The notes beneath the pieces were generated by a model that was given only the letters and a program-made list of their open reading frames with translations, searched no databases and was not told where the DNA came from. Source: Niastella koreensis GR20-10 (lineage in GTDB: Bacteria > Bacteroidota > Bacteroidia > Chitinophagales > Chitinophagaceae). Taken from it: a DNA stretch of 64,000 nucleotides. The position numbers and the translations under genes were made by a program. Numbering within the stretch: the first letter of the stretch is position 1; every line of letters begins with the position of its first letter. Shown here piece after piece: positions 15,815 to 47,872 of the stretch. Location of the stretch: positions 7,886,744 to 7,950,743 of the forward strand of contig NC_016609.1 of NCBI RefSeq assembly GCF_000246855.1. The letters run 5' to 3'.

Positions 15815-16014
15815 TTGTTGCGAACTTTTCAGCAAAAATTCCATACTTCTCCCATAGAATGACTGATTTTTCTAATCTTATTGTAAACGTTCGGGCAAAA
15901 GTTGCGAACTTATGCCATTGTTGCGAACTTTTCGACATAAGTTGCTTATTATACCGCATTTCCAACTGACTATGACTCATTAACGCTGAACATTATGGCA
16001 TTTGTTGCGAATTT
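15815..16014. repeat. Dispersed TTGTTGCGAACTTTTC words
   Basis: TTGTTGCGAACTTTTC occurs exactly at 15815-15830 and 15918-15933. GTTGCGAACTT recurs at 15901-15911 and TTGTTGCGAATTT at 16002-16014. Variants continue to the right as GTAGCGAACCT (about 16044), with inverted AAGTTCGCTAC further on. Confidence 0.8.
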
Positions 16015-16111
16015 GAGGCTATTTGCACAACTTCAGAGCACAAGTAGCGAACCTGGAGCGTTTACTTTTAAACATGGGCGCAAAAGTTTAAGATCTACAG
16101 TAAAAGGTTGG

Positions 16112-16153
16112 TTACTTACGCGTCAAAGTTCGCTACTTACGCATCAAAGTTCG
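16112..16153. repeat. 21-bp tandem duplication
   Basis: Units 16112-16132 and 16133-16153 differ at 2 of 21 positions. Each unit contains TACTTACGC and CAAAGTTCG, the latter being the reverse complement of the CGAACTT word repeated to the left. Confidence 0.85.
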
Positions 16154-16379
16154 AAATTGATGACTTATATCAGGCTGCGAATATAGTGGGGTACTGAGAA
16201 CAGAGAGTGAAGCGTTTTGCCTGCCTATCCGGCGTGGGAAGGCTCTTCTAAATCCCCCAATTTTTCAATCTGATCCATTTAATAGTTCAGTATGAATTTA
16301 TAATCCAATGTCGCAGTATTGTTGTAGTGGCATGAAAAAAGCGATTACACATTTCTGCATAACCGCTTGATCTTGTTCG

Positions 16380-16452
16380 TGGTGTGGGGCGGGATCGAAC
16401 CGCCGACACAAGGATTTTCAGTCCTTTGCTCTACCGACTGAGCTACCGCACC
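16380..16452 (-). tRNA. tRNA-Phe(GAA)
   Basis: On the minus strand the gene starts at 16452. The acceptor GGTGCGG/CCACACC has one C-A mismatch. The D-arm is GCTC-AGTCGGTA-GAGC, the anticodon arm AAGGA-CTGAAAA-TCCTT (anticodon GAA), the variable loop GTGTC, and the T-arm GGCGG-TTCGATC-CCGCC. The discriminator is A and CCA is not encoded. The length of 73 nt is standard. Confidence 0.95.
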
Positions 16453-16487
16453 TTTTCGATTTTTACCTATTTGGCTAAATCGGGCTG

Positions 16488-16516
16488 CAAAAATAGGGGA
16501 TATTCTGAATAAACAA
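16488..16516 (-). promoter_or_regulatory. Promoter of tRNA-Phe
   Basis: On the minus strand TATTTTTG (complement of 16488-16495) matches TAnnTTTG, and TTG (complement of 16514-16516) lies 18 bp further upstream. Transcription would start about 30 bases before the tRNA. Confidence 0.65.
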
Positions 16517-16550
16517 GCAAAATGCGCAAAAAGAATTCCAATTTTTTTCA

Positions 16551-16580
16551 ATAAAAAAGCACCCGGCTCGGGGTGCTCAT
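16551..16580 (-). terminator. Intrinsic terminator of the small exported protein gene
   Basis: On the minus strand GCACCC, a short GC-rich loop and GGGTGC are followed by TTTTTT. It sits about 60 bp after the stop of the gene at 16636-17070. Confidence 0.8.
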
Positions 16581-16635
16581 TGGCTTATTCATTATTCATG
16601 CCCTTATTGCAGTCTCTTTATATAAATGCTTTCTT

Positions 16636-30732: not shown

Positions 30733-30766
30733 CAAATTTACCGGAATGCGAGGTTCCAGGTTTCAA
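30733..30766 (-). promoter_or_regulatory. Predicted ldhA promoter embedded in heptamer repeat
   Basis: On the minus strand TAAATTTG (complement of 30733-30740) matches TAnnTTTG. A TTG (complement of 30764-30766) lies 23 bp upstream, at the long end of the accepted spacing, and falls inside the 7-bp tandem repeat at 30751-30785. The start site would be within a few bases of the ldhA ATG. Confidence 0.5.
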
Positions 30767-30785
30767 GTTTCAGGTTCCAGGTTGC
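30751..30785. repeat. Five tandem heptamers (AGGTTYC)
   Basis: Five consecutive 7-bp units start at 30751, 30758, 30765, 30772 and 30779, with consensus AGGTTYC; two units are identical. They overlap the -33 region of the predicted ldhA promoter. Confidence 0.9.
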
Positions 30786-30872
30786 CCGTTTATGGAAACT
30801 CCGGATTGGATGGAGCATGTTATTGTTTATGGCAAATATGAATTCCCGTTTGTGGAAAATGGCCGGTAACGC

Positions 30873-30912
30873 TTCGGTTGGTGTTCGGTTAATGTTCGGT
30901 CAAGCTTCGGTT
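30873..30912. repeat. Four TTCGGTT words at 10-12 bp spacing
   Basis: TTCGGTT or TTCGGTC occurs at 30873, 30884, 30894 and 30906, i.e. spaced 11, 10 and 12 bp, roughly one DNA helical turn. It lies between divergent ldhA and asnS. A further TAnnTTTG match (30968-30975) and one at 31026-31033 lie between it and asnS. The remainder of 30786-31087 shows no gene. Confidence 0.7.
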
Positions 30913-38100: not shown

Positions 38101-38140
38101 ATACCCTTTAGCCGGATTCTTCCTTAAATCTCCATAAAGT

Positions 38141-38238
38141 AACAAGGACCAAACAGGGACCTGAGCCGGACATAACAGGGATTTTATCCCTATGAGGCCC
38201 CTGTTTGGTCCCTGTTATGTCCCTGTTATGTCCTTGTT
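38141..38238. repeat. 98-bp imperfect palindrome built from 11-bp words
   Basis: AACAAGGAC (38141-38149) is mirrored by GTCCTTGTT (38230-38238). Between them the left half carries AACAGGGAC-type words and the right half three tandem 11-bp units of the TCCCTGTTATG type (from about 38209). An inner AGGGATTTTATCCCT palindrome also lies in the centre. It sits between the terminators of the lpoB operon. Confidence 0.85.
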
Positions 38239-38289
38239 AGGTGATGAAAAGTTCCTGAAAAGCTCCGGTTCAAATCCGAAACGGGCCTG

Positions 38290-39311: not shown

Positions 39312-41615
39312 ATGAAAAAGGTAATCAACATAAATTTCCAGGGCAGGGTGATTCCTATTGAGGAGACTGCTTTTGAAATACTAAAGCAATACATAGAAAG
39401 TTTGCGAAGGTATTTTGCAAACGAAGAGGGGCGCGATGAAATTGTAAACGACATTGAAAGCCGTATTGCCGAACTGTTTTCCGAAACATTAAAGAAAGGC
39501 GCTACCTGCATCACCGACGCAGACGTACAGGCGGTAATGGCCAGCATGGGCCGCCCTGAAGATTTTGAAGCGGAGGCAGGCCTCAATGAAAATGGCGGCA
39601 CGCACGCATCAGGTTCAGGTACCGGTGCAGGAGCAGGAGCCGGTCAGCAACAACCAGGCAGCTCTTCGCAACAGTCGCAGTCAACAGGCAGCGCAGGTTC
39701 CTATAGCAGTCCCGGTGCAGGCCGCGGCCGGTTGTACCGCAATGCCGATGATAAAATTATTGCCGGTGTATGTAGCGGCCTGGCCAACTACTTCCACATA
39801 GACCCCGTGATCATGCGGATCATATTTGCCGTGTTGTTGTTCACCGGTGGTTCAGGATTTTTGGTATACATCATCCTGTGGGTAGCCGTTCCGTCACAAT
39901 CTGTTGCCTCCAACATCACCAAAAGGTTATACCGCAGTTCAGACGACAGGGTAGTAGCAGGTGTTTGCGGTGGTTTGGCTGCTTATTTCAACATCAATAC
40001 CTGGGTTCCCCGGCTCATCTTTGCCTTACCATTGATCATCGGGTTATTCTCAGGCGTGTTTAACTGGTGGTGGGGTCATGATTCGGATTTATGGTTCGGC
40101 CCACGAGTGGTGACCGGTTCTTTAACCAGCACCTTGTTTGTAACCTATATTGTTTTGTGGATAGCGGTACCCATTGCCGTTACTGCAGCCGAAAAATTGG
40201 AAATGCGGGGGGAGCGCGTTGATCTGAACTCAATACGTGATACAGTTAAGGAAGACCTGGAGAGTTTCAGATCTAAGGCACAGAACTGGGGAAATGAAGT
40301 AAAACAATCGGCCCAGCAATTTGGCGACCGCGCCAAAGAATTCAGCCAGAGCGAACGCGTAAAAACCTTCACGCACGAAGCATCGTCAACTGCCCGCAAT
40401 GCCGGCAGCGGCATCGCCCACATCATAGGGGTGTTATTCAAAGCCTTCTTTTTGTTTATTGTTGGGGTAATAGCGCTGGCCCTGTTTGGTGTATTGATGG
40501 GGTTGCTTTTTGGCGGTGCGCCGTTTATGTCGCTGAAAGGATTTTTGCTGGAAGGTTTCTGGCAGAACTTCTTTGCCTGGGCAACATTGTTCCTGTTCCT
40601 CGGCGTACCGGTGATTGCCCTTATTACCTGGTTGATCCGCCGCATCATGGGCGTACGTTCTAAAAACCATTATCTCGGTTATGTATTTGGCACTTTGTGG
40701 TTTGTTGGTATCGTATGTGCCGCCTTACTTACAGGCTCTATCTTCCGCAGTTTTAAATCGCGCGGCTTTGTAGAGGAGAAATTATCAATAACGCAGCCAG
40801 CCAAAGGAAAGTTATACCTGGAAGCAACAGCCAGTAACATTAACTATAGTTATTACAGCAACGACTGGTTCGATTGGGATGAAGACTGGCCTTTGTTTGG
40901 CGCCAACCTCGATTCGTTTATGTTGAACACCGTTCGCGTAGATGTGGTTAAAAGTACCGACAGCGCTTTTCATGCAACCAAAGTGAAATTCAGCCGCGGC
41001 AGCGATCCGGTAAACGCCCGCGACCTGGCCGAAAAGATCAATTTTCAAACCTACCAGACCGACAGTGTATTATACCTGCCCAAAGGATTTTCGATCAGTA
41101 AAAAAGAACGGTTCAGAAATCAGCAGGTATTGATTGTTTTACAGGTGCCCGTTGGTAAAAGGTTCTTTTTCGACCGGTCTATTTCAAAATACAACTGGTT
41201 CGATGTGCGGTATAACCGTCATGGTGGTTTTCAGATAGATGATACCTGGGAACGTACCTACGGGGTTGAAACAGATAAAGAATATATCATGAGCCCTGAT
41301 GGTCCTAAAAAAATACTGGACCTGGACCCCGAAGCCTTGCGTAAGGGGGAATATAAGGACCGGGAAAAAGAGGAGGATAAAGAAGAAAATAAGGAAGAAA
41401 ACGACGAACATAAAAAGAAGCACGATCGTAAAAACAACGAGTCTGCACAAAAAGATACAACCAGTGGCTATCGTTACCACAAGCAAACCCCGGTAAAGAA
41501 AACTGATTCCACGCAGGCAAAGGTGAACACTTCATCTGCCAGTGTAGAAACTATCAATGAAGAGCATTCGGGATTATTGTTTTCACCCTGGGTTGTGAAC
41601 AACGCTATTAGTTAA
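39312..41615 (+). CDS. Large PspC-domain membrane protein
   Basis: The product has 767 residues. The N-terminal cytoplasmic part (KKVININFQGRVIPIEETAF, GRPEDFEAEAG) is followed by a Gly/Gln/Ser-rich linker. Two PspC domains come next: about 140-200 (RLYRNADDKIIAGVCSGLANYF) and about 210-300 (RLYRSSDDRVVAGVCGGLAAYF). An amphipathic helix, then four or more transmembrane helices (about 375-490) and a large periplasmic beta-rich region follow. The extreme C-terminus is highly charged (EKEEDKEENKEENDEHKKKH). PspC proteins sense or relieve membrane stress. With its PadR regulator it forms a phage-shock-like module, here with a duplicated PspC domain. Confidence 0.9.
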   Translation: MKKVININFQGRVIPIEETAFEILKQYIESLRRYFANEEGRDEIVNDIESRIAELFSETLKKGATCITDADVQAVMASMGRPEDFEAEAGLNENGGTHASGSGTGAGAGAGQQQPGSSSQQSQSTGSAGSYSSPGAGRGRLYRNADDKIIAGVCSGLANYFHIDPVIMRIIFAVLLFTGGSGFLVYIILWVAVPSQSVASNITKRLYRSSDDRVVAGVCGGLAAYFNINTWVPRLIFALPLIIGLFSGVFNWWWGHDSDLWFGPRVVTGSLTSTLFVTYIVLWIAVPIAVTAAEKLEMRGERVDLNSIRDTVKEDLESFRSKAQNWGNEVKQSAQQFGDRAKEFSQSERVKTFTHEASSTARNAGSGIAHIIGVLFKAFFLFIVGVIALALFGVLMGLLFGGAPFMSLKGFLLEGFWQNFFAWATLFLFLGVPVIALITWLIRRIMGVRSKNHYLGYVFGTLWFVGIVCAALLTGSIFRSFKSRGFVEEKLSITQPAKGKLYLEATASNINYSYYSNDWFDWDEDWPLFGANLDSFMLNTVRVDVVKSTDSAFHATKVKFSRGSDPVNARDLAEKINFQTYQTDSVLYLPKGFSISKKERFRNQQVLIVLQVPVGKRFFFDRSISKYNWFDVRYNRHGGFQIDDTWERTYGVETDKEYIMSPDGPKKILDLDPEALRKGEYKDREKEEDKEENKEENDEHKKKHDRKNNESAQKDTTSGYRYHKQTPVKKTDSTQAKVNTSSASVETINEEHSGLLFSPWVVNNAIS

Positions 41616-41697
41616 CAGCCGCATGAAAAAAATTTGATTAACCCTCCCCGCCGCTTTGCTTAACCGTTAGTCGGAAGCAGGCGGGGTTGAAGTTGGA

Positions 41698-41727
41698 ACA
41701 AAGGGCCTTGTTGAGGGCCCTTTTTTG
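41698..41727 (+). terminator. Intrinsic terminator of the PspC operon
   Basis: AAAGGGCC, a 7-base loop and GGGCCCTTT are followed by TTTTT. Confidence 0.85.
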
Positions 41728-41762
41728 GGCCTCCCCCCCGACCCCCTCCGGTGGAGAGGGAG
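41728..41762. repeat. C-rich 35-bp repeat, copy A
   Basis: GGCCTCCCCCCCGACCCCCT followed by a TGGAG hairpin arm and GGGAG. It is nearly identical to 47310-47343, differing at the two loop bases and by one extra A. In both places it follows a T-run of a terminator or T-rich tract. Confidence 0.9.
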
Positions 41763-41831
41763 TTTGGCAGCCTCGCGATAAAACTTAGCCTGTTAATTTT
41801 CATACTTCCAACCTCTTACTTCGGATTTCCT

Positions 41832-41933
41832 TTATCAACTCTGTCATCCCTATCAACTACCCCACTTAGTACTGCATAGCTTCACATTAACGTGTTAACT
41901 TGTCAACATGTTAACTTATCAACTAATCAACTA
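41832..41933. repeat. 9-bp and 8-bp word arrays (ATCAAC / GTTAAC)
   Basis: Three 9-bp units ending in ATCAAC or ATC start near 41832. Further right, units ending in TTAAC or TCAAC follow at 8-bp spacing (about 41892-41930) up to the gcvT -7 element TAAATTTG (41932-41939). A sister tract with the same two word types lies at 47766-47872. The rest of the spacer 41616-41967 holds no gene. Confidence 0.75.
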
Positions 41934-41939
41934 AATTTG
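41932..41939 (+). promoter_or_regulatory. Candidate -7 element for gcvT
   Basis: TAAATTTG matches TAnnTTTG, 28 bp before the gcvT ATG. The nearest TTG upstream is 29 bp away, too far, and the intervening DNA is the 8-bp word array. Confidence 0.4.
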
Positions 41940-41967
41940 CGCCTCAAACAAAAACTACACATACTGT

Positions 41968-43053
41968 ATGAAGAACACGCCTTTCACGCAAAAGCATATT
42001 GCCCTGGGGGCTAAAATGGCGGAATTTGCCGGGTATAATATGCCCATTTCCTATAGCGGTATCAACGACGAACATGCCGCTGTGAGAACCAATGCCGGGG
42101 TATTTGACGTAAGCCATATGGGCGAGTTTATTCTGAAAGGCGAGCACGCGCTTGACCTTATTCAACGGGTTACATCCAACGACGCTTCCAAATTAACGGC
42201 AGGTAAGGCCCAATACAGCTGTTTACCCAACCAGGAAGGCGGTATCGTAGACGACCTGCTGGTTTACTGCATCGAGGAAAACAAAGTGTATATGCTGGTA
42301 GTGAACGCTTCCAACATCGAAAAAGACTGGAACTGGATCTCGCAATTCAATACCAACAAGGTGGAAATGCACAACATTTCCGACAAAACCTGTTTGCTGG
42401 CCATTCAGGGACCCAACGCCACCAAAATGTTGCAACCCCTCACAGATATCGATATTCTTAATTTAAAATATTACACGTTCGCCAAGGGCACATTTGCCGG
42501 GGTTGATAATGTGGTGATCAGCGCCACCGGTTATACCGGCGCAGGCGGCATTGAAATTTATTTTGAAGACAGGGACGGCTGCGCCGAAAAAATATGGGAC
42601 GCCATTTTTAACATCGGTACTCCCCAGGGGCTGAAACCAATTGGCCTGGGCGCCCGTGATACCCTGCGCCTTGAAATGGGTTTCTGCCTGTACGGAAACG
42701 ACATTGACGACACTACATCACCGCTGGAAGCGGGTTTGGGGTGGATCACCAAATTCACCAAAGACTTTACCGCCCGCCCCATTATTGAAAAGCAAAAGGC
42801 TGCCGGTGTTACCCGTAAACTGGTTGGGTTTGAGATGATTGACAAAGGCATTCCCCGCTACCATTACGATATTAAGGATGCCGCAGGCAATAAGATCGGG
42901 TTTGTTACTTCGGGCACCCAGGCGCCCAGCCTGCAAAAAGCCATTGGTATGGGCTATGTGAACCTGGAGCATGCCGCACTGGACACTGAAATATATATCG
43001 GGGTGCGCGACAAGCTGTTGAAAGCGAAAGTGGTAAAGTTTCCGTTTGTTTAG
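41968..43053 (+). CDS. gcvT: Aminomethyltransferase, T-protein of the glycine cleavage system
   Basis: The product has 361 residues, full length. Family landmarks include the start [49 protein letters not shown], the [14 protein letters not shown] motif near 190, [13 protein letters not shown] and the C-terminal [20 protein letters not shown]. It transfers the methylene group of aminomethyl-lipoyl-H protein to tetrahydrofolate. The gcvH and gcvP genes are not adjacent. A heptamer-bracketed inverted repeat begins 8 bp after its stop. Confidence 0.96.
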
Positions 43054-43060
43054 GCTCAAA

Positions 43061-43189
43061 ATTTAAGGCACAAGAAAAACCAAGATACAAGGCACAAGAC
43101 CTGAATTCCGGGATGGCTGAAATTTGTCGGGCACTCCGAATTTCGGAACTTGTGCCTTGCCTCTTGTACCTTGTGCCTTTGGCTTAAAT
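43061..43189. repeat. Heptamer-bracketed inverted element after gcvT (AAGGCAC family)
   Basis: The left arm (43061-43105) is made of AAGNNAC-type heptamers with AAGGCACAAG at 43065-43074 and 43089-43098. The right arm (about 43149-43189) has the reverse complement CTTGTGCCTT at 43149-43158 and 43170-43179. A 40-50 bp core lies between. The arms can form a long imperfect hairpin. The layout is the same as the two elements around comB, but the heptamer is different. Confidence 0.9.
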
Positions 43190-43232
43190 ATTGCTGCAAA
43201 GGGCTACGTTTTCCTAAATACGAGATCCCTGT

Positions 43233-43715
43233 ATGCCTACAATCCATTTAACAACCTTTATTGCCGCACCTATTGAAAGGGTTTTTGATCTGAGCCGTAG
43301 CATTGACCTGCACAAAAAATCAATGACCGATTACCGCGAAGAAGCTGTTGCCGGAACCATCACAGGTTTGATAAACCTGGATGAAACGGTAACCTGGAAG
43401 GCCAAACACCTGATGAAAACACGGGTGTTGCAAGTGAAGGTCACATCCATGCAAAGACCACTCTCTTTTACCGATGAAATGAAAAAAGGCGATTTCAGAA
43501 GCATGAAACATGAGCACCACTTCAAAGAAATTGAAAATGGCACGCTGATGATCGATGTTTTCAGGTTTGAAGCGCCCTTTGGCGGACTGGGAAGATTTTT
43601 CAGTAGCGTTTACCTTTCGGGCTACCTGGAAAAACTGCTGGAACAGCGTAACGAACTGATAAAAGAATATGCGGAAAGCAGTAAGTGGAAACACGTTTTA
43701 GACAATAAGCAATAG
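43233..43715 (+). CDS. SRPBCC-fold (START/Bet v 1-like) protein
   Basis: The product has 160 residues. It begins with the typical strand and helix of the fold (PTIHLTTFIAAPIERVFDLS) and contains the paired strands (TWKAKHLMKTRVLQVKVTSM), the MKHEHHFKEIENGTLMIDVF turn and the long C-terminal helix (YLEKLLEQRNELIKEYAESS). The fold binds hydrophobic ligands. Homologues are annotated as cell-division inhibitor-like or polyketide-cyclase-like without clear function. The last four residues before the stop (DNKQ) are encoded by the CAATA heptamer array that starts at 43701, so the repeat has defined its C-terminus. Confidence 0.85.
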   Translation: MPTIHLTTFIAAPIERVFDLSRSIDLHKKSMTDYREEAVAGTITGLINLDETVTWKAKHLMKTRVLQVKVTSMQRPLSFTDEMKKGDFRSMKHEHHFKEIENGTLMIDVFRFEAPFGGLGRFFSSVYLSGYLEKLLEQRNELIKEYAESSKWKHVLDNKQ

Positions 43716-43816
43716 ACAATAGACAAGGTCTCGCGAATTGTGGAGTGATCGACTGCAGGCAGGCTAATGTAAAGCAGGGAATTTTTGCCAATTGCTAATT
43801 GCCCATTGCCGATTGA
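43701..43816. repeat. Heptamer-bracketed element left of comB (CAATA family, copy 1)
   Basis: The left array is four 7-bp units (43701-43728, of the GACAATA type). The core, 43717-43760, overlaps the end of the array. The right array is five units of the NNATTGC type (43782-43816), the reverse complement of the left word. The element contains the stop codon of the SRPBCC gene. The core matches copy 2 (44634-44677, inverted) at 34 of 44 positions. Confidence 0.88.
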
Positions 43817-43830
43817 ATTAATTACTTTTG
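43799..43830 (+). promoter_or_regulatory. comB promoter overlapping repeat
   Basis: TTG (43799-43801), 21 bp and TACTTTTG (43823-43830) fit the consensus. The -33 TTG is itself one of the ATTGC heptamer units. The start site would be about 10 bases before the comB ATG. Confidence 0.6.
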
Positions 43831-43845
43831 CGGTTTATTAGAATT

Positions 43846-44598
43846 ATGTCAAACAACAAACCGACTCTATACACATCTCTGTCTCCTGCCTTACTTGATT
43901 TGTACGATATTAATAATACAATTGTTGTGATCATCGATGTGTTTCGCGCCACATCAACCATTGCTACCGCATTGTATAATGGCGCTAAATGCATTATCCC
44001 GGTTGACAGTGTAGCCAAGTGCATTGAGCTGGGTAAAAAAATTGAAGCCATCACTGCCGGTGAACGCGACGGTAAAATAGCAGAGGGGCTGGAGTATGGC
44101 AATTCACCCTTTGAATACTCAAAGGAATTTATCGCTGGTAAAACACTGGTGCTTACTACCACCAATGGCACTAAACTGTTGCATATGGCATTGGAGCGGG
44201 GTGCAGGCCACATAATAACCGGATCGTTCCCTAACCTGTCGGCCATTTGCGATTATCTTATTCAACAAAAACAGCCGGTACTGCTGGGTTGTGCTGCGTG
44301 GAAAGACCGCGTGAATATGGAAGATATGTTATTTGCCGGTGCAGTAATTCACCAGGTTAAAGAGCATTTCAACATTAACTGCGACAGCTCGGGCATAGCA
44401 GAAACCATGTATCTGAACGCCAAAAGCGACATGTATGGTTTCATCAAAGACAAACAGGCCACCCACTTTCAGCGACTTACCAATTTTGGGCTGGAAAAGG
44501 ATATCCGCTATTGTCTTACGCCCGATATTGCCAATGTGCTGCCGTTTTATGAAGATGGTAAACTGGTAGTACACAATACAATAGACAATTGGCAATAG
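43846..44598 (+). CDS. comB: 2-phosphosulfolactate phosphatase (ComB family)
   Basis: The product has 250 residues from the ATG at 43846. Family motifs are visible: VVIIDVFRATSTIATALYNG, the EGLEYGNSPFEYSK segment, LVLTTTNGTKLLHMALERGA, TGSFPNLSAICDYL and CAAWKDRVNMEDMLFAGAVI. In coenzyme M biosynthesis ComB hydrolyses 2-phosphosulfolactate; in bacteria without coenzyme M its product sulfolactate may serve other sulfonate metabolism, so the physiological role here is open. The C-terminal NTIDNWQ is encoded by a heptamer array (44578-44612). Inverted copies of a 120-bp element flank the gene. Confidence 0.88.
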   Translation: MSNNKPTLYTSLSPALLDLYDINNTIVVIIDVFRATSTIATALYNGAKCIIPVDSVAKCIELGKKIEAITAGERDGKIAEGLEYGNSPFEYSKEFIAGKTLVLTTTNGTKLLHMALERGAGHIITGSFPNLSAICDYLIQQKQPVLLGCAAWKDRVNMEDMLFAGAVIHQVKEHFNINCDSSGIAETMYLNAKSDMYGFIKDKQATHFQRLTNFGLEKDIRYCLTPDIANVLPFYEDGKLVVHNTIDNWQ

Positions 44599-44699
44599 AC
44601 AATAGGCAAAGCTTTCCTGTTTTACACCAGTTTGCCTATGGTCGCACACCCCGCAATTCGCGAACCCTTGTCAATTGCTATTGACTATTGCCAATTGAA
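44578..44699. repeat. Heptamer-bracketed element right of comB (CAATA family, copy 2, inverted)
   Basis: The left array is five 7-bp units (44578-44612, ACAATAG/GCAATAG type), overlapping the comB stop codon (44596-44598). The core at 44634-44677 is the reverse complement of the copy 1 core. The right array of ATTG words runs 44672-44699 (spacing 6, 7 and 7 bp). As a whole it is copy 1 in reverse orientation. Confidence 0.88.
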
Positions 44700-44720
44700 C
44701 TTTAGCTTTCCTTTAATAAA

Positions 44721-44939
44721 CTATTTCAGATCCCTGTGCGTTATTTGCACAGGGATCTTTCTTTTCAGCACTCCCGCCCAGATTTGTTCTTTCCCGGTAA
44801 AATAGTGCGTTTGTATATACCTGTTGGTGGTTAAAGTGAGGTTTTGAATAACCATCATGGTTAAGTGTTTAGCATACAATAGCTGGCTTCCGGTAAGGGT
44901 TTTATAAAAACAGGCCATTTTGAACTGGCCCGAGTACAA
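44721..44939 (-). CDS. Doubtful 72-codon frame
   Basis: The minus-strand frame reads YKTLTGSQLLYAKHLTMMVI and so on, with codon use like real genes. It has only a TTG start (or an ATG 7 codons in). Its last codons are the arm of a perfect plus-strand terminator (44728-44758). No family is recognised. It may be a remnant or chance. Confidence 0.25.
   Translation of the reverse strand: MYSGQFKMACFYKTLTGSQLLYAKHLTMMVIQNLTLTTNRYIQTHYFTGKEQIWAGVLKRKIPVQITHRDLK
44728..44765 (+). terminator. Intrinsic terminator of comB
   Basis: AGATCCCTGTGC (44728-44739) and GCACAGGGATCT (44747-44758) form a perfect 12-bp stem with a 7-base loop, followed by TTCTTTT. Confidence 0.92.
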
Positions 44940-45481
44940 TTTTGGTCCGGCAGGTGTAAGTGACTTAGTCCAACCAGGCTACTTGCCTGTTCCAGGTCAA
45001 TAAGTTATACACATAATGCCAGTTTTGGTAAAAAAAAGCAGTTAAAAGCAGCCGGTTAAGCATTATGTAAGTTATTTTTTATAATATTTGTGCTGCAAAT
45101 CAAAATGGGGGTGGAATTGGATTTGCATTATCCTCATTAAGCCTGGTTGTAGATCATTTCATTATTAGGTGCCGCAGCGATAGAAAATGTGAAAAACAGC
45201 AGAACCCGGAGCCGTAAGAAGGTAGCCCAATTGCCCTGAATGTACGCTATAGGGGCTAAAAAAGTGACAGAAAAGCGGGATCGGACCCAAAAATTTTTGC
45301 TTTTTGTAAATTTGGCGTATTATTGTGTTTGGAATAGGGCTGATAAGTCATACCCGATACTCACAAAGCTCATCAGTTATTTCATTCCACGCATATAAAA
45401 CTCATTTCAATTTTTTTTCATCAGAATTTTCAACGAACAAAGTTTGCTCGTCTGATTAGGTGTTAACTCACAAGTTATTTT
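44940..45481. other. Long leader region of rho, no gene
   Basis: About 540 bp upstream of rho hold no ORF. One TAnnTTTG match (TAAATTTG, 45307-45314) would give a leader of about 160 bases, but it lacks a placed -33. Rho genes in many bacteria have long leaders used for autoregulation, so this may be functional. I see no clear attenuator hairpin. Confidence 0.45.
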
Positions 45482-47224
45482 ATGTATGACATTTTGCAAT
45501 TGAACGACATGCTCGTTCCAGAACTGTTAGATATTGCCGAACAGTTAAAAATACCCAACGCAAAAAAATTAGACAAACAGGAGCTAGTATATAAAATCCT
45601 AGATAAGCAGGCTGTGATGGCAAGTGCAGTAAAGAGTAGTGCAGCCGATGATAAAGGTAAACGTAAAAGAGTAGTAAAGACCACTACTGCAAATGCAACG
45701 GAAGAAGCAGATGTAGTAAGTGGTGATGATAAACCAGTGCGCAAGGAACTGAAGAAGGAAGCGCCCAAAAAGAAAGTAATAGAAAAGCCCGCTCCGGCGC
45801 CAATTCCAGTGAAAAAGGGTCGCAAGAAACCAGAGCCGGAAGAAGAAGAGGAAGAAGCAACCCCGATTTTACCAGTGCTGATGGATGACGATCATGATGA
45901 ACATAATCATCATGAAGACCAGGAGGATGACGAAATGCCTCCGCATGATGATGAAGAGGAAGGCGATGATGAGGAAGAAGGTGGCACCATAGTTTCTCAC
46001 CAACACCAGCATCACGGACACCACGAACGAATGTCAGAGCCGCAACCTTCGGCAGATCAGCAACAAAAATCATATCCCCACCGCCGTGAAAGTGCCTTTA
46101 ACATTGAATTTGACGGCGTTATTATGGCAGAGGGTGTTTTGGAAATGATGCCCGACGGATATGGTTTCTTACGCTCTTCAGACTACAACTACCTTTCTTC
46201 TCCAGACGATATCTATGTTTCTCCTTCCCAGATAAAATTATTCGGCTTAAAAACAGGTGACACCATCTTCGGTGCTGTTCGTCCGCCCAAAGAAGGAGAG
46301 AAATACTTCGCGTTGCTGAAAGTGGAAACCATCAATGGTAAACAACCGGAAGATGTGCGTGACCGCGTACCTTTCGATTACCTGACCCCACTGTTCCCAT
46401 TCGAGAAGCTGAACCTGTTCACTGTTCCCAATCAATACAGCACCCGCATCATGGATCTGTTTACGCCCATTGGTAAGGGTCAGCGTGGATTGATTGTGGC
46501 GCAGCCAAAAACCGGTAAAACCGTATTGCTGAAAGAAGTGGCCAACGCCATTGCAGCCAATCACCCCGAATGTTATCTGATGGTGGTACTGGTTGATGAG
46601 CGTCCTGAGGAAGTTACCGATATGGAGCGCAGCGTACGTGCTGAAGTAATTGCTTCTACTTTCGACGAACCAGCTGAAAAGCACGTGAAAGTATCTACCA
46701 TTGCCCTGCAAAAAGCAAAACGCCTGGTAGAGTGCGGTCATGATGTAGTTATCCTGTTAGACTCTATCACCCGTTTGGCCCGCGCCCATAACACCGTAGC
46801 GCCTGCATCAGGTAAAGTATTATCCGGTGGTGTGGAAGCGAACGCCATGCAAAAGCCTAAACAATTCTTTGGCGCCGCCCGTAAAATTGAGAACGGCGGT
46901 TCATTAACCATACTGGCCACCGCATTGATAGATACCGGTTCTAAAATGGATGAGGTGATCTTTGAAGAGTTCAAGGGTACCGGTAACATGGAATTGCAGC
47001 TGGACCGCCGCCTGGCCAACAGACGCGTGTTCCCGGCCATTGACCTGGTAGCCTCTTCTACCCGTCGCGATGACCTGTTGCTGGAACGCGATGTGCTGCA
47101 ACGCATGAACCTGTTACGTGTGTATCTTACAGATATGAATACGGAAGAAGCAATGAGTGAATTGCTGAAACGTATGCGTGGTACAAAAGACAACCAAGAG
47201 TTCTTAGCAAGCATGAACGGCTGA
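45482..47224 (+). CDS. rho: Transcription termination factor Rho with Asp/Glu/His-rich insertion
   Basis: The product has 580 residues. The start [20 protein letters not shown] is the usual Bacteroidetes Rho N-terminus (Rho_N helices, 1-48). Residues about 55-200 are an insertion: a basic part ([31 protein letters not shown]) then a strongly acidic and His-rich part (about 118-196; [28 protein letters not shown]). The cold-shock RNA-binding domain follows (about 215-290, [20 protein letters not shown]), then the hexameric ATPase with Walker [11 protein letters not shown] (Lys346), [27 protein letters not shown] and the C-terminal ring contacts. All catalytic motifs are intact. E. coli Rho is about 419 residues, so the insert adds most of the extra length. 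Confidence 0.97.
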
Positions 47225-47647: not shown

Positions 47648-47872
47648 AAAGGGCAAAAGGCAAAGGGCAAAGGCCGCAACGCGGATGAAATCCGAAAGTA
47701 AAGCGAGCCCTCAACTTCGCTCGGTCTCTTCGCTGACCCTTCGACTTCGCTCTGGGTATTCGTCCTTTATCAACGCTATCAACTCCGTCAACTCTATCAA
47801 CCTGCCACTGTATACCAAAAACGCTTCACTTTAAACCCTTGTCAACACGTTAACCTGTTAACCCGTCAACTA
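47648..47872. repeat. Composite word-repeat tract (heptamers, then 9-mers and 8-mers)
   Basis: Four heptamers of the AAAGGGC type lie at 47648-47675. CTTCGCT words occur at 47715, 47728 and 47745. Four 9-bp units ending in TCAAC follow (about 47766-47801), then four 8-bp units ending in TCAAC or TTAAC (about 47839-47870). The last runs into the stop codon of the IPExxxVDY gene. The tract fills the 283-bp spacer between two minus-strand genes. A short TCCCGATAGTGATCGGGA palindrome near 47614-47631 precedes it. Confidence 0.85.

Follow-up and report, generated by a model that had tools for sequence, protein, structure and literature searches.

The two gaps that flank comB in the soil bacterium Niastella koreensis GR20-10 are built alike, with inward-facing arrays of short tandem words on both sides of a core, and each gap begins with an array that holds the stop codon of the gene before it. 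What kind of element has this form, and why does it lie at gene ends? We analysed a window of 64,000 nucleotides (positions 7,886,744-7,950,743; the genome is one contig of 9,033,684 bases), with Niastella and Longitalea as the closest relatives by ComB comparison. The features concerned are as follows, in window coordinates unless the genome is named.

43233-43715, plus strand: SRPBCC-like gene (PF10604 at 24.5 bits, below the cut-off of 27.4), its stop taken from the array
43699-43726, plus strand: left array of the SRPBCC/comB element, CAAT words at 43703, 43710 and 43717 (spacing 7, 7)
43713-43715: SRPBCC stop codon, inside that left array
43727-43784, minus strand: core of the SRPBCC/comB element, by core alignment (genome copy 7930454-7930538, minus)
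43785-43815, plus strand: right array of the SRPBCC/comB element, ATTG words at 43791, 43798, 43805 and 43812 (7, 7, 7)
43846-44598, plus strand: comB (PF04029), the gene between the two elements
44574-44609, plus strand: left array of the comB-downstream element, CAAT words at 44574, 44579, 44586, 44593 and 44600 (5, 7, 7, 7)
44596-44598: comB stop codon, inside that left array, which also encodes the ComB tail
44610-44669, plus strand: core of the comB-downstream element, by core alignment (genome copy 7931342-7931421, plus)
44670-44697, plus strand: right array of the comB-downstream element, ATTG words at 44674, 44680, 44687 and 44694 (6, 7, 7)
44728-44758, plus strand: terminator-like hairpin with a T-rich tail, separate from the element and downstream of it, kept in 7/7 relatives (by eye)

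The word positions bear out the architecture that a sequence-only reading had proposed for both gaps, namely CAAT words at 7-nt spacing, a core and inverted ATTG words. The array-word consensus is a CAATWGN heptamer, CAAT being constant and W and N variable, that faces inward from both sides of a core of ~60 nt; in the comB-downstream right array, a 20-nt arm is 95% complementary to 44586-44605. Allowing up to two mismatches, the CAAT word pattern has 14 matches in the window versus 0.38 expected, and with up to one mismatch it has 366 in the genome versus 4 for a reversed control pattern. The SRPBCC/comB core is in minus orientation relative to the comB-downstream copy, and the agreement of the two inverted cores at 34 of 44 positions was reproduced. 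Ten of the 44 bases are array word; the remaining stretch matches at 25 of 34 positions, and the best match of this 34-base stretch across 1.6 million positions of the genome sample was 21.

Both stop codons had been placed within left arrays, correctly, and the arrays had further been credited with encoding the last residues of both proteins. This holds for ComB, whose array-encoded C-terminus reads HNTIDNWQ here and HNSTDNWQ in N. populi; N. yeongjuensis and N. soli have HNGQY and HNDQY instead (translations), TIDNWQ standing where those two have GQY or DQY. It does not hold for the DNKQ of the SRPBCC protein: the tail reads DNKQGA-stop in N. yeongjuensis and N. soli, both array-free there (translation), and the gene therefore owes its array the stop only. 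In N. caeni (L036:2800-2850) SRPBCC stops early (DN-stop) because its CAAT-like end reads CAATTAGCAATAG, the word changing the C-terminus. At the opposite end of the SRPBCC/comB element in our genome, the last ATTG words (43805-43832) sit just upstream of TACTTTTG, which we take to resemble a Bacteroidetes promoter box. Array-free relatives retain ATTGCCAA(T/C)TG at the matching site, and judging from the sequence the word remnant may serve the comB promoter.

Copies of the core elsewhere in the genome were what the sequence-only reading had made its case depend on, and such copies exist. The comB-downstream element as query gave 76 genome matches, most of them array only and several spanning the core at 71-79%. 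A core model built on sequence from seven copies recovered 11 genome copies at E <= 3.1e-8, seven of these being the ones used in building it; since the model takes in about two words per side, weak matches may be arrays alone. Strong copies are present in six of nine genus relatives (G198, G199, G195, G196, G071 and G150; best E-values 5.6e-19 to 2.2e-8), with six copies at E <= 2.1e-10 in G199. The best matches in G197 (1.4e-5), G201 (0.005) and G200 (0.01) are weak. Three of 195 family genomes, all of the same genus, had a core match at E <= 1e-5 (22 candidates scored per genome), and a search of 72,556 plasmid records for the element found no match. The two comB cores have 74% identity with one another, and 82% and 78% with the respective copies most like them at other genome sites. 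As each is closer to a distant copy, two elements reached comB separately, and neither gap arose as a local inverted duplicate of the other. What the gaps have in common is thus a dispersed family and not a duplicated gap. Conserved cores are not the general rule: just four similar array-bearing pairs were found among 95 array gaps. Similar masked non-array sequence occurs in 25 gap pairs among 409 gaps, some of it in long repeats unrelated to arrays, and the intergenic stretch 15980-16635, with 90.5% identity over 327 nt to a gap in L131 (16492-16850), is a long repeat of this unrelated sort.

The CAAT words belong to a genome-wide class of arrays. A period scan of 864 kb (40 evenly spaced 20-kb stretches plus the window, 9.6% of the genome) found periods 7, 8, 9 and 11 in 47, 18, 6 and 7 arrays, respectively, in addition to multiples such as 14, 16 and 21, and the same scan of Markov shuffles gave none. 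At a looser threshold, with genes taken as longest-ORF calls, intergenic arrays accounted for 68/75 of period 7, 35/38 of period 8, 8/10 of period 9, 8/10 of period 11 and 25/30 of period 14; periods 6, 12 and 15 were mostly genic, with 19 of their 21 arrays inside genes. The 144 intergenic arrays of periods 7, 8, 9, 11 and 14 occupy 91 of 462 gaps, and for 76 of them an inverted partner exceeding the 5% null level lies within 250 nt. The corresponding fraction is 41/68 for period 7 and 0/8 for period 9, whose unpaired arrays may differ in kind from the others. Clustering over all positions, intergenic or not, returned 23 words with four or more arrays and 26 with three or more; because two period-9 clusters look coding and some clusters are probably splits of one word, we count ~20 recurring words. 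The CAAT family that had been singled out is accordingly real, but one of ~20 and not a lone case. Across Chitinophagaceae the density of periods 7, 8 and 11 is patchy: 15.9 per 100 kb in our sample, 5 to 20 in seven genus relatives (40-60 kb each) and 0 to 20 in 14 other family genomes (20-40 kb each; 0 in seven), the values for G179 and G138 being biased upward as their stretches were picked around CAAT matches. The density was 0 in 50 kb of E. coli K-12. Of the comB loci examined elsewhere in the family, 17 of 73 have arrays, in two of the 17 of period 10 only, and the exact CAAT pattern is present in 45 of 195 family genomes.

The arrays are anchored at stop codons. Placement was measured for 139 arrays, in the 91 gaps whose flanking genes reach at least 300 nt. 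For 45 of them a facing stop codon lies no more than 10 nt from the near edge of the array, compared with a mean of 15.4 and a maximum of 29 under uniform placement (2000 runs); the same measure for start codons gave 4 versus 11.9 expected. Inside an array lie 35 of 582 stop codons, and arrays supply both stop codons and C-terminal residues. Of the 40 arrays over stops, 36 have stop triplets in more than one frame, versus 99 of 198 readings of the others (both senses), an excess that is partly forced because an array over a stop must contain one. Paired arrays carry 7.96 stop triplets per 100 nt in the outward sense versus 5.18 in the inward sense (52 arrays higher outward, 23 lower, 14 equal). 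The first 30 nt outward are free of stop triplets in 17 of 89 paired arrays, and several words, for instance GTTCCAG, have none at all.

Orthologous gaps were compared around five distant core copies, with slot contents classed by eye and one genome per species. The comparison covered 8/9 genus relatives at L003 (all except G199), 9/9 at L002, 8/9 at both L005 and L027 (where no orthologous flanks were found in G198) and 3/9 at L004. At L003, CAAT words in our genome correspond to near-empty slots in G198 and G201 (16 and 24 nt between flanks), GATTTTGA-like 8-mers in G195, G197, G071 and G150, an AAGTAGG 7-mer in G200, and CAAT plus a GAACTGT 7-mer in G196. The gene tail changes with them in translation: MRHD-stop in G198, G195, G197 and G071, MRHDG-stop in G201, and MRHDQ-stop, using the TAG of the array, in our genome and G196. 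The L002 slot holds CAAT words in G198, G200, G201, G071, G150 and G196, some with other words beside them, and mainly other words in G195, G197 and G199; our genome and G198 have a common left array there with different cores. At L005, 4 nt separate the flanks in G150, an array-free hairpin stands in G197, G200 and G201, CAAT in G195, and other words in G196, G199 and G071. The gene at L027 ends RIKSQSTISNRH in our genome and differently in each of five relatives translated, with 26 nt between flanks in G199 and a hybrid in G071 and G150 with CAAT words on just one of its sides and different words opposite. The L004 slot is array-free in all three relatives compared (G198, G201 and G200), so that gain and loss are indistinguishable from that slot alone. 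Homologous elements and empty slots, which the sequence-only reading had looked to relatives to supply, are therefore both present.

Nearer comB, the gaps around gcvT, SRPBCC and comB were compared in seven relatives, and 33 gaps in eight. The gap before gcvT has different words in nearly each species; the array directly before gcvT (41887-41934) is made of 8-mers like TTAACNNG/TCAACNNG, and most relatives have different words there. GGCACAA words fill the gcvT/SRPBCC slot in our genome, and a shorter form, seen by eye below the array threshold, does so in four Niastella. In this gap 43061-43186 forms a GGCACAA-word hairpin (z -8.1); the slot's occupant is a plain stem bordered by runs of A and T in OAS944 (L037) and a set of GTTACAG arrays in both Longitalea. 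At comB, several relatives carry CAAT arrays in the slots; N. yeongjuensis, N. soli and G200 do not. Elsewhere in the window, an inverted 11-mer (CCCTGTTAGGT) element at 38126-38253 folds strongly (z -7.35) and occupies the same place in four Niastella species, so that some slots, this one and those at comB among them, hold the same word across species. An AAAGGGC 7-mer plus TATCAACTC 9-mer array after rho (47648-47801) is mostly missing in N. soli and N. yeongjuensis, and AGGTTNC 7-mer and TTCGGTTAATG 11-mer arrays share the gap at 30751-30911, with other words there in relatives. Overall, word families are replaced at orthologous slots (L003, L002, L005 and the gap before gcvT).

We consider it probable, at roughly 60%, that the elements are slot-bound, dispersed, non-autonomous intergenic repeats that are tolerated at gene ends, those at comB belonging to the genome-wide word-array class. 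Their dispersal, near-empty slots, anchoring at stops, replacement of words and recoding of stops and tails are observed directly. A non-autonomous mobile repeat was among the options first listed for the comB elements, and the dispersed core copies, the near-empty slots and a core confined to the genus among 195 genomes support it. Such elements would be copied into slots at gene ends and would then lengthen, shrink and swap cores by recombination or template switching between like arrays; template switching may contribute. They would persist at gene ends because inward reading from either flank soon hits a stop in some frame, and would consequently do little harm to genes, tolerance that would follow from the stop codons that many words carry in several frames. 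No linked transposase was found for the word-array elements, and no target-site duplication is evident by eye at L003 against G198, where TAA is replaced and the flanks are only 84-90% identical. Same-word pairs 0.3-4 kb apart were inverted in 4 cases and direct in 5 in the 9.6% sample, with no excess of the inverted pairs around genes that an autonomous parent element with like ends would show. Also weighing against the reading are the slots that hold one word across species, the array-free L004 slots and the words and paired arrays that lack stop triplets.

A purely mutational origin, in which slippage from gene-end seeds (CAATAG) makes the words, quasi-palindromic template switching copies the arm and nothing moves, is unlikely. 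The SRPBCC genes of array-poor relatives already end CAATAG (L033, L037), and the gcvT/SRPBCC slot grades from the single stem with A/T runs in L037 to the many-word hairpin of our genome. Cores are also mostly unrelated between elements; with four of the array-bearing gap pairs sharing masked non-array sequence, the general want of a common core counts against copying and fits a mutational origin about as well as it fits the copying of units. Slippage has difficulty, however, with the same words at hundreds of places (the 366 CAAT pattern matches), with a core family common to unlinked places and other species, and with unrelated words in one slot across sister species. Against it, too, a partner arm is barely better matched than other same-word arms: it scores above their mean in 51 of 79 cases, and the mean fraction of other arms at least as good is 0.43.

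This weak coupling of partner arms speaks against selection for one exact hairpin, and a hairpin maintained by compensatory change was rejected on that ground. A second alternative, which we regard as improbable, is that the elements are functional 3'-end hairpins, either terminators or mRNA-stabilising structures under selection at gene ends. Folding relative to shuffles is strong for the comB-downstream copy (z -5.95), as it is for the gcvT/SRPBCC and 38126-38253 elements (z -8.1 and -7.35); the anchoring at stop codons also favours this reading, as does array density: divergent gaps carry 0.67 arrays per kb, fewer than tandem gaps (1.56) and convergent gaps (1.42). Against this, the SRPBCC/comB copy does not fold (z 0.02), slots such as L027 in G071 and G150 are hybrids with different words on each side, and downstream of the comB element stands the separate, conserved terminator-like hairpin. 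A T-tract (at least 6 T in 10 nt) follows the last array in 3 of 69 tandem gaps, with a baseline of 7.3%, which speaks against intrinsic terminators and led us to reject them. An Rfam search of 41500-45500 returned nothing above gathering score and one sub-threshold match (mir-283, 21.9 of 50 bits). The structured RNA suggested at first thus keeps the one strong fold in its favour and is otherwise weak, given the unfolded copy, the loosely matched arms and the missing T-tract.

More speculatively, the genome might encode novel machinery that writes or moves short-word arrays at stop codons, extending both slot ends with one word and so rewriting C-termini by interchangeable cassettes; we hold this to be a long shot. 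Both ends of a break or insertion slot would gain copies of one word of 7, 8 or 11 nt, in a telomerase-like extension or one templated by existing arrays, and inward-facing arrays would be left around whatever lay between. Less credible still is that the words are putative binding sites of word-specific proteins, iteron-like or nucleoid-like, dispersed as the protein acts genome-wide. The constant (CAAT) and variable (W, N) positions of the words would suit a recognition site, as would the absence, by eye, of any word in both polarities among 89 paired arrays, but replacement of words at orthologous slots is difficult to reconcile with gene-specific control. Mobilisation by Y1 (HUH) transposases in a REPIN/RAYT-like system is very improbable, and RAYT-driven spread was rejected, since for all that the elements are small, dispersed, intergenic inverted repeats and the stronger Y1_Tnp match adjoins heptamer arrays, the genome has two such matches (75 and 23.3 bits) versus ~20 word families, and the arrays are tandem words, not single short palindromes. 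The arrays directly adjoining that match (L151:1870-1990) are of CGTGAAT and GATTGCC/GATTGAC heptamers.

The closest precedent is the GGGAATC arrays of Xanthomonas (Rehm et al. 2015, PMC4692102), where bracketed heptamer pairs are already known. The accessible part of that report describes degenerate heptamer arrays, mostly intergenic and on average 28 nt from the end of the upstream gene, with 70 to 75 convergent pairs per genome at different genes in sister species, and treats the one G-rich word as quadruplex-forming. Degenerate, mostly intergenic heptamer arrays (68/75 of period 7) and convergent inverted pairs (41/68) recur here. In contrast, our genome has ~20 words of several periods, GGGAATC is absent from the word clusters and CAATWGN lacks a G-run, the array edge lies at the stop codon itself, and words are replaced in orthologous slots. 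Relative to the Xanthomonas arrays as described there, the many words and periods in one genome, the tight anchoring at stops and the replacement of words are new.

Other heptamer systems are more distant. The TAACTGA repeats of Beggiatoaceae, cyanobacteria and five Bacteroidetes (MacGregor 2015, PMC4679880) are, in the portion of the paper available, intergenic heptamer direct repeats of one word that mostly sit, in the main genome, immediately before start codons, with only one inverted set and a proposed role as translational sites; in some Bacteroidetes they are mixed with other heptamer repeats and missing from the same gap of close relatives. Our period-7 arrays are likewise intergenic heptamer repeats, but of many words and anchored at stops rather than starts. 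In Geobacter metallireducens, 49 elements with four tandem heptanucleotides and a second class of five heptamers, drawn as strand-switching hairpins and mostly paired, lie within genes as well as between them and are described as putative regulator sites (PMC2700814); the sections of that article consulted mention neither stop anchoring nor word replacement. Heptamer-derived families are also noted in the available text of 'Satellites in the prokaryote world' (PMC6749651). As far as published excerpts allow comparison, the elements resemble MITEs and REP/REPIN sequences in being small, dispersed, non-coding and intergenic with inverted symmetry, and differ in having tandem word arrays as arms, no linked transposase and no target-site duplication seen. 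The core family of 11 copies with its inverted word arms is MITE-like, whereas most other elements lack a common core. REP/REPIN units are 20-40 nt palindromes with a GTAG or CGTC head, in part according to the accessible text of PMC3733652; where these depend on RAYTs, the two Y1 matches here are too few for the families. A set of many interchangeable words with several periods, placed at stop codons, was not described in the literature we searched, mostly outside subscription journals.

About 20 interchangeable short-word families at stop codons amount to a natural experiment in the spread of non-autonomous repeats and in the change of C-termini. With sister species showing either empty orthologous slots or slots filled by different words, the gains, losses and replacements can be put in order, though one genome per species does not allow them to be timed, and this makes the long-standing question of why heptamer arrays are so common in bacterial genomes directly testable.
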